Origin: Candidatus Stackebrandtia excrementipullorum
GTDB lineage: Bacteria > Actinomycetota > Actinomycetes > Mycobacteriales > Micromonosporaceae
Reading direction: 5' to 3'
DNA length: 64,000 bases
Assembly: GCA_019113825.1 (NCBI GenBank)
Contig: DXGR01000080.1
Location: 28,292-92,291, forward strand
Part shown: positions 31,966-39,454 of the stretch, one piece after another
How the letters are laid out: every line of letters starts with the position of its first letter
Numbering within the stretch: the first letter of the stretch is position 1
The notes under the pieces: model-generated
Database searches by the model: none
Told to the model about the DNA's origin: nothing
What the model saw: only the letters and a program-made list of their open reading frames with translations
Translations under genes and position numbers: made by a program

Positions 31966-32052
31966 GCCGAGGTGGTGGAATTGGCAGACACGATGGATTC
32001 AAAATCCATTGTCCGCGAGGGCGTGCGGGTTCAAGTCCCGCTCTCGGCACCA
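31966..32052 (+). tRNA. tRNA-Leu, anticodon CAA, CCA encoded
   Basis: gccgaggtggtggaattggcagacacgatggattcaaaatccattgtccgcgagggcgtgcgggttcaagtcccgctctcggcacca: acceptor GCCGAGG/tCTCGGC, anticodon loop TTCAAAA, long variable arm, GGTTCAAGTCC T-loop. Confidence 0.96.
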
Positions 32053-32072
32053 GTGTGATGTCTCAGGACATC
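32038..32072. repeat. att-like direct repeat, copy 1 (tRNA-Leu 3' end plus small dyad)
   Basis: ccgctctcggcaccag (identical to 32390-32405), then tgt, then dyad gatgtctcaggacatc. Confidence 0.75.
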
Positions 32073-32078
32073 GAGGAC

Positions 32079-32107
32079 GGCTGAACCCATGTTTTGTGGG
32101 TTCAGCC
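32079..32107 (+). terminator. terminator-like hairpin downstream of tRNA-Leu
   Basis: ggctgaaccca-tgttttg-tgggttcagcc: perfect 11-bp stem followed by gtttctgtttt. Confidence 0.75.
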
Positions 32108-32293
32108 GTTTCTGTTTTGCGGGTGGGGCCGGGTGGTCGTCCGGTGGATTGGTAGCGCTTGGTGGGGTCGAGGGCCAGTTGGGCGAAGGACTTCGCCGGT
32201 GATGGCGTTGATGATGGTGATGTCGAGGTCTTGGATAAGGGCGATGACGGGTTCGGGTGTGGGTTCGTCCGATGCCAACGGAGTAGAAGACAT
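32100..32293 (-). pseudogene. frameshifted C-terminal remnant of an integrase-core transposase (IS481/IS3-like)
   Basis: Frame 1: PVIALIQDLDITIINAITGEVLR; after one extra C the reading continues in another frame as QLALDPTKRYQSTGRPPGPTRKTE. Together these match the usual C-terminus of actinobacterial transposases (from memory). No N-terminal or catalytic DDE region is present. Confidence 0.65.
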
Positions 32294-32389
32294 GCCTGAG
32301 CATCCCCGATCGAAGCCTGTCGGCCATGACCCGACACATCAGTCCGGCATGACCCGAGACACCCGGCCGGGATGTCCTGAACCACAGCA

Positions 32390-32423
32390 CCGCTCTCGGC
32401 ACCAGAAGATGTCTTAAGGCATC
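32390..32423. repeat. att-like direct repeat, copy 2
   Basis: ccgctctcggcaccag repeats the tRNA-Leu 3' end exactly, then aa, then gatgtcttaaggcatc (13/16 match to the dyad in copy 1). Confidence 0.75.
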
Positions 32424-32430
32424 ACGACAG

Positions 32431-32459
32431 AGCCGGGCTCCGGTGGAGTCCGGCTTTTT
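32431..32459 (+). terminator. intrinsic terminator-like hairpin with T tract, possibly the ancestral tRNA-Leu terminator
   Basis: agccgggctcc-ggt-ggagtccggct followed by tttt. Confidence 0.65.
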
Positions 32460-37954: not shown

Positions 37955-39454
37955 TCAGTACGGCACCGCCAACGGCGCGGAGTCGAAGGCCACCGGTGAA
38001 GGCAGGTCGACCTCGCCGCCCAGGTAACGGTGAATTGCGGCCGCTGCGGATCGACCCTCGGCGATCGCCCACACGATGAGGGACGCCCCACGATGAGCGT
38101 CCCCGGCCACGAACACACCCGGCACGTCGGTTTGCCAGTCAGACCCACAACCGATGACACCACGTTCACGTGTGAGCCCGAGCTGGTGAAGCAGCGGCTG
38201 ATCCTCGGTGCCGGTGAAACCTATTGCCAGCAACACCAGATCAGCCGGTATCTCGCGTTCCGTGCCCGGAACCGGCACGATGTCGCGACGGCCATTCGAC
38301 TTGTCGACGGTCACCTCACCGATACGCATCCGGCGGACGCGTCCCTCGTCGTCTCCGACGAACTCGGCCGTCGCCACGGCAAAAACGCGTTCCCCTCCTT
38401 CTTCATGAGCCGGGTAGTTACGCAGCAGCGTGGGCCAGGTCGGCCACGGGTCCCGTCGAACATCGCGTTCGTCGGGTGGTTGCGGATACAGGTCGAGTTG
38501 TGTCACCGAAGCGGCTCCCTGCCGATGTGCCACCCCCAGGCAGTCGGCTGCGGTGTCACCACCACCGATGATGACGACGTGTCTGTCTGCCGCGTCGATC
38601 GTCGAAAAAGGTGCTCTCCCGGCTACCACCCGGTTGGCCTCCACCAGGTGTTCCATGGCGAGATGTACACCACGCAATCGGTTTCCGGGTGCGTCACTAT
38701 TCCGCCCCTCCAGGGCCCCGGTGGCCAACAGGATCGCGTCGTGGCGCGCTTGTAGGCGCTCCATGGAGATGGTGACACCGACCTCGCAGTCGGTGACAAA
38801 CGTGACGCCCTCGGCCGTCAGTTGTTCCACACGTCGGTCGACACGGTGCTTCTCGAGTTTGAAGTCGGGTATGCCGTACCGCAGCAGGCCCCCCACGGCG
38901 TCGTCACGTTCATACACGGTCACCCAGTGACCGGCACGGGCCAGCTGTTGGGCCGCGGCCAGGCCCGCGGGTCCCGAACCGACCACACCGACGCTGCGAC
39001 CGGTGGACGACGTCGCCGGTATCGGGACCACTTCCTCGTCGGCGAAAGCCCGGTCGGCGATGTCGGACTCGATCTGTTTGATGGTCACCGCACCGACGTC
39101 GGCGCCGTACTCGGCGGTTTCGGTACCGATGCTCAGGACACAGGACGCCTCACACGGGGCCGGACACAGCCGTCCGGTGAACTCCGGAAAGTTGTTGGTG
39201 GCGTGCAATTGACGGGAGGCTTCGCGCCATGCGCCTGTACGGACGAGATCGTTCCACTCAGGAATCTTATTGCCCAGTGGACAAGCTTGATGGCAGAAGG
39301 GGATACCACAGTCCATGCACCGTGACGCCTGGTCGCGCAACCGGCTCTCGTCACCGGTCTCGTAGACCTCGCGATAATCCATGAGGCGGATCGGTACGGG
39401 ACGGCGCGGTGGCAGGTCACGTCGATGGCGCAGGAAACCATTGGGGTCAGGCAC
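37955..39454 (-). CDS. gltD: glutamate synthase small subunit
   Basis: [64 protein letters not shown]. Start placed at GTG of MPDPNGFL. Confidence 0.95.

Follow-up and report, generated by a model that had tools for sequence, protein, structure and literature searches.

The DNA between the two copies of a tRNA-Leu(CAA) 3′ end in Candidatus Stackebrandtia excrementipullorum is, very probably and in its entirety, the dead remnant of an IS481-family insertion sequence (IS) that inserts specifically at the 3′ ends of tRNA genes. Beyond this single locus, we consider it likely that the element stems from an old and widespread actinobacterial IS481 clade with a DDE transposase that, acting alone, recognises the T-loop sequence of tRNAs and inserts at a fixed distance from it, that a built-in terminator making insertion harmless came later, and that a second IS481 lineage uses the same target with a 6-nt shift and in the opposite orientation.

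Within the window, by which we mean the whole 64-kb stretch of DNA analysed, the 16-mer CCGCTCTCGGCACCAG is present as two exact copies (32038-32053 and 32390-32405), as the first-pass annotation had reported for the tRNA-Leu(CAA) 3′ end. There is no third copy in the 64 kb, where the next best site carries three mismatches. The features of the locus are as follows:

31966-32052, plus strand: tRNA-Leu(CAA), the target gene, left complete (ARAGORN; Rfam RF00005).
32029-32037, plus strand: T-loop box GTTCAAGTC, the putative recognition site, 25 nt ahead of the IS end (24-25 nt in 70 of 73 relatives).
32038-32053, plus strand: proximal copy of the 16-bp target-site duplication, comprising the tRNA acceptor end, CCA and one further base (read from the sequence and the duplication rule in relatives).
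32054-32389, no strand assigned: internally deleted IS481-family element of 336 bp, compared with ~1.34 kb for intact relatives (end profiles; lengths of relatives).
32054-32072, plus strand: left terminal repeat TGTGATGTCTCAGGACATC (left-end profile match at 32054-32128, E = 2e-15).
32075-32119, plus strand: IS-borne intrinsic terminator facing the tRNA, a hairpin at 32075-32111 followed by a T-rich tail (terminator scan; conserved and covarying in relatives).
32110-32265, minus strand, limits approximate: frameshifted remnant of the transposase C-terminus (translations compared with intact transposases).
32371-32389, minus strand: right terminal repeat, TGCTGTGGTTCAGGACATC on that strand (right-end profile match at 32323-32385, envelope to 32389, E = 4.5e-9).
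32390-32405, plus strand: distal copy of the 16-bp target-site duplication (exact match).
32431-32459, plus strand: probable original tRNA terminator, shifted downstream, AGCCGGGCTCC-GGT-GGAGTCCGGCT and then a T-run (read from the sequence).

Rfam found the tRNA alone at this locus, with all remaining matches far under the gathering score. Elsewhere in the window, ARAGORN reported a 96-nt tRNA-Ala(GGC) at 38957-39052, which lies within a long ORF resembling the glutamate synthase small subunit and is probably a false positive.

The end profiles were built from relatives with the window excluded, using 73 sequences for the left end and 48 for the right. The right end of the window copy is ...GCA (TGC on the opposite strand) and differs by one base from the ...ACA of the relatives. 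Judged from its sequence, 32054-32389 is an IS481-family insertion sequence that has lost its middle and kept both ends. Because the 16-mers touch both of these ends exactly, the repeat is its target-site duplication; chance is excluded mainly by this context, in which the 16-mers abut a 336-bp element matched by independent profiles, and less by the 16-mer itself. The catalytic residues are gone from the window copy, and what remains of its transposase is too short for the IS481 model test; we have filed the element as a degenerate IS481 member, in a variant group defined by its target. The hairpin terminator and the frameshifted, minus-strand transposase-like C-terminus that the first-pass annotation had described within the interval are both present. 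Its broader proposal, that a mobile element had inserted at the tRNA 3′ end and was later mostly deleted, is upheld by the end profiles and by IS-free tRNA-Leu loci in two congeneric species (see below). A search for further copies of the interval, which had also been suggested, returned one partial copy in the same genome (a 4.17-Mb draft) that is 92% identical and begins directly after tRNA-Thr(TGT). At this second remnant (G000:C13:8229-8779; L004 1230-1780), a short tandem CAGCTC/CAGCAC array occupies the expected duplication site, as if the duplication had decayed or expanded.

Longer relatives lie directly after tRNA-Ser, -Arg, -Met and -Pro genes in the same GTDB family, and intact ones are ~1.34-1.38 kb long with one gene. 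Two intact elements of ~1.38 kb (L017 and L010) start with TGTGATGTCTCRRGACATC and finish at about GATGTCCTGANNCAGNACA, and their gene, oriented towards the tRNA, encodes a 412- to 426-aa transposase containing HTH and rve domains. Intact relatives scored 224.8 and 226.3 bits with the NCBIfam IS481 model NF033577, just above its cut-off of 224. In an alignment of 38 relatives, D141, D205 and E250 are invariant, and we assign them from this alignment as the putative DDE catalytic triad of an RNase H fold. In an AlphaFold model of the transposase (mean pLDDT 81, pTM 0.61), helices at the N-terminus are followed by an RNase H core and then by a beta region at the C-terminus. The model matches IstA and TnsB best by fold; by sequence, the best matches are retroviral integrases. 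No integrase gene was found in either the window interval or the intact relatives, which carry the DDE transposase alone, and the single-gene, ~1.34-kb intact elements likewise contain no TnsC, TniQ or guide-RNA components.

To describe the spread of these elements, we scanned the genomes of 84,980 prokaryote species and retained the best 80 related loci, which represent many actinobacterial genera across the Actinomycetota. ARAGORN placed a complete tRNA at 52 of the 80, on the opposite strand and 30-109 bp past the transposase match, with isotypes Pro (16), Ser (15), Arg (8), Met (6), Ala (3), Thr (2), Leu (1) and Lys (1). More distant relatives added Val and Asn, for ten tRNA isotypes altogether. 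Most of the remaining loci adjoin a tRNA 3′ fragment, consisting of the T-arm and acceptor end, or a contig end; at a few, such as L053, L073 and L110, the insertion point shows no clear tRNA end. Only one of 72,556 plasmid records contained a relative (E ≤ 1e-60; 51% identity), which adjoins the 3′ fragment of a tRNA and has a duplication of 15 bp, and none was found in the IMG/VR scan or in phage records. Such near-absence from plasmid, phage and viral collections is as expected, since the element needs tRNA ends. Some tRNA 3′ fragments are isolated, the 5′ half of the tRNA being absent (L040, L041, L048, L077, L097, L227 and others). These may be att scars of integrated elements, in which case the IS may mark old att sites.

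The insertion point is precise with respect to the T-loop. At 70 of the 73 loci with a located left end, the IS end is preceded at 24 or 25 nt by the T-loop GTTC. Of random positions within these loci, 0.5% have GTTCRA in a window that was set more loosely, at 5 nt. Target-site duplications were found at 48 of the 73 loci (15 bp at 25, 16 bp at 19 and 13-14 bp at four), and all but one of them (47 of 48) begin 9 nt past the G of GTTC. First-lineage elements have a single orientation, with the transposase facing the tRNA. The window follows the same rule as its relatives, GTTCAAGTC being followed by 16 bp and then, at 25 nt, by the IS. We also considered C74 as a target requirement. It is invariant in the targets (64 of 66) but equally so at 25 of 25 sites lacking a lineage-1 element and is therefore a property of tRNA genes, so that only the T-arm stands out. 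The right end of the IS contains the T-loop-like sequence GGTTCAGG; mimicry between IS end and target was dropped as an idea, as many relatives have GGCTCAGG. A more distant IS481 element (L126, in G292) has nearly the same end (TGTGATGTCTCAGGACATG) with no tRNA there, indicating that a given end sequence is not enough to determine the target.

A strong hairpin and a T-rich tail come after the left terminal repeat, on the tRNA strand, in the subclade with the window-type end (75 sequences, mean folding energy about -29 kcal/mol). Across 58 distinct arm pairs, pairing at pairs 1-6 of the outer stem reaches 87%, compared with a mean of 58% and a maximum of 64% in shuffles that ignore the relatedness of the sequences, and pairs 3-6 covary, showing several pair types. 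Deeper relatives (45-49% identity) mostly have a second terminal repeat in place of the terminator and are still found at tRNA ends, which suggests, tentatively, that targeting preceded the terminator in this clade. The inner stem of the hairpin (32075-32111 in the window) is always GAACC or GGACC paired with a GGTTC-like arm in the 58 distinct relatives, with the outer stem varying freely. These are the same letters as in the tRNA T-arm, and the inner stem could be where the transposase binds.

A comparison across related genomes, as the first-pass annotation had recommended, showed that two congeneric species (L118 and L119) have the orthologous tRNA-Leu(CAA) with no IS beside it. In both, the tRNA lies beside the same response-regulator gene, whose protein is 88-90% identical, in a comparison between species and not between strains. 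In L119, a native terminator-like hairpin follows the IS-free tRNA. The corresponding IS-free state of the window would have had the tRNA running straight into AAGATGTCTTAAGGCATC. The hairpin and T-run at 32431-32459 were missed by a simple terminator scan; as the first-pass annotation had proposed for the sequence after the distal copy, they are probably the original terminator.

A second IS481 lineage, with ~30% identity to the first, also occupies tRNA 3′ ends, and its transposase reads away from the tRNA (L127/L168 in G304, L128/L172 in G274, L169, L170, L171 and L178). In members with at least 61% identity to L127, a tRNA 3′ end is found 112-115 bp upstream of the transposase, the exception being the short fragment L196. 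The IS end lies 30-31 nt after GTTC in the four measured cases, and L171 has a 16-bp duplication. Beyond the second-lineage element of L127 lies what looks like the relic of a left end of the first lineage. As a control, 30 further rve_3 transposase loci from the class were checked for neighbouring tRNAs; a single one had a tRNA nearby, and it is a member of the second lineage. A tree of 108 transposases was built by a quick search; some of its branches are long, and seven labels were corrected by hand after inspection of the flanks. In this tree, the first lineage formed one clade of 85 rows (SH-aLRT 100), 75 of them at tRNAs or tRNA fragments, six not and four unknown, and five second-lineage rows formed a separate clade with support of 100.

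These observations suggest a mechanism in which the DDE transposase, or a complex formed by it, would find the conserved T-loop box GTTCRAnTC, and joining would take place right after the box on one strand and 15-16 nt farther downstream on the other. Gap repair would then copy the acceptor end, so that the tRNA would stay complete with the IS adjoining it and the transposase facing it. In one subclade, which includes the window copy, the terminator in the IS end could replace the tRNA terminator displaced downstream. We infer that the transposase, as the sole gene, itself reads the T-arm/T-loop box as DNA and that the terminator of the IS end works in the cell. Insertion at fragments unable to make a tRNA argues against recognition of RNA, of tRNA structure or of transcription, unless the fragments post-date the insertion. 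Alternatively, a host factor bound to tRNA genes, and not the transposase, could do the targeting.

The first-pass annotation had read the repeat as attL and attR of a tyrosine-recombinase integration at the tRNA 3′ end, with the integrated island later deleted. Although integrases often use tRNA 3′ ends as attB, and although the repeat spans the tRNA end in the manner of attL/attR, we now regard this origin as highly improbable: the whole interval is an IS481-family DDE element with both ends touching the repeats, intact forms of it beside other tRNAs measure 1.3 kb, encode a single transposase, lack an integrase and show the same duplication, and the repeat falls in the 15- to 16-bp class of target-site duplications. 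The accompanying idea that the element delivered the tRNA 3′ end is likewise abandoned, as a target-site duplication needs no replacement end. Just as improbable, in our judgement, is that IS481 elements insert widely and that only harmless copies beside tRNA genes survive. The intergenic ends of tRNA genes would indeed be tolerant sites, and the tRNA is kept intact, but selection of this kind would not fix a T-loop distance precise to 1 nt together with a single orientation, nor insertions at isolated tRNA 3′ fragments, and it does not sit well with the general lack of tRNA association among the other rve_3 transposases.

A different proposal would add to the IS481 reading without fully replacing it, namely that two insertions occurred in succession and that the dyad at 32408-32423 and the terminator after it are the left end of an older IS. 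The distal dyad, GATGTCTTAAGGCATC, does follow the distal 16-mer, resembles an IS end and is succeeded by a hairpin and T-run. That a single tRNA can be hit more than once is attested by tandem arrays: in Mycobacterium asiaticum (L107), one IS end is followed by a 16-bp tRNA-Arg-like end and then by the next IS, and L201/L222 contain a similar array, with the duplication between the copies. At the window locus, however, the left-end profile is not significant over the distal dyad (E about 9, on the other strand), there is no third copy of the 16-mer, and no transposase-like remnant lies past 32460. We therefore consider an older insertion here unlikely. The first-pass annotation had described related dyads after both 16-mer copies; the dyads exist, and their kinship is unproven, given that GATGTCTTAAGGCATC does not score as an IS left end.

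Defined targets are rare among simple insertion sequences. Yeast Ty1 and Ty3 and the TRE elements of Dictyostelium, which have rve-fold integrases, insert preferentially beside tRNA genes; these are retrotransposons guided by Pol III factors and offer the IS481 clade an analogy only. The clade shares with the IS481 family its transposase family, TGT...ACA ends, single gene in ~1.3 kb and DDE core, and differs from described IS481 elements in its precise, one-orientation T-loop targeting and in the terminator inside the IS end. Target-site duplications in IS481 are mostly 6 bp, within a range of 2-15 bp and with some members at ~15 bp (PMC10045372, which does not mention tRNA); those of the clade, at 15 or 16 bp in 44 of 48 relatives and 16 bp in the window, are at or one base above the upper end of the reported range. 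We found no description of IS481 insertion at tRNA ends or of an IS-end terminator in the open-access literature that was searched.

Among other simple DDE insertion sequences, ISAjo2 of the IS1202 family inserts at a fixed distance and orientation at dif/pdif sites (PMC10132070). Its target is a Xer site, with insertion 5 bp from the XerC/dif site and a 5-bp duplication, in contrast to the T-loop and 15-16 bp of the present clade; other IS1202-family members with long duplications have no identified target. Tn7-like elements and type I-B2, I-D and V-K CASTs carry out DDE transposition beside diverse tRNA genes (PMC11406308). They need TnsC, TniQ/TnsD or guide RNAs, whereas the clade encodes a transposase alone, albeit one with TnsB among its best fold matches. 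Genomic islands and prophages that integrate at tRNA genes by tyrosine recombinases also use the tRNA 3′ end and leave direct repeats. The clade differs from them in having no integrase and in a repeat that is a staggered-cut duplication, 15-16 bp at many isotypes, with no imported att core.

If our interpretation is correct, a DDE transposase encoded as its element's only gene and homing to a tRNA motif that is nearly universal would provide a tractable model of how a target is chosen with no ATPase, TniQ or guide RNA, and would parallel the tRNA homing of Ty elements, Tn7-like elements and CASTs. The terminator in the IS end looks like a case of a mobile element repairing the transcription unit that it has entered. 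For annotation of Actinomycetota genomes, short direct repeats of tRNA 3′ ends may be the footprints of insertion sequences and not of lost genomic islands.
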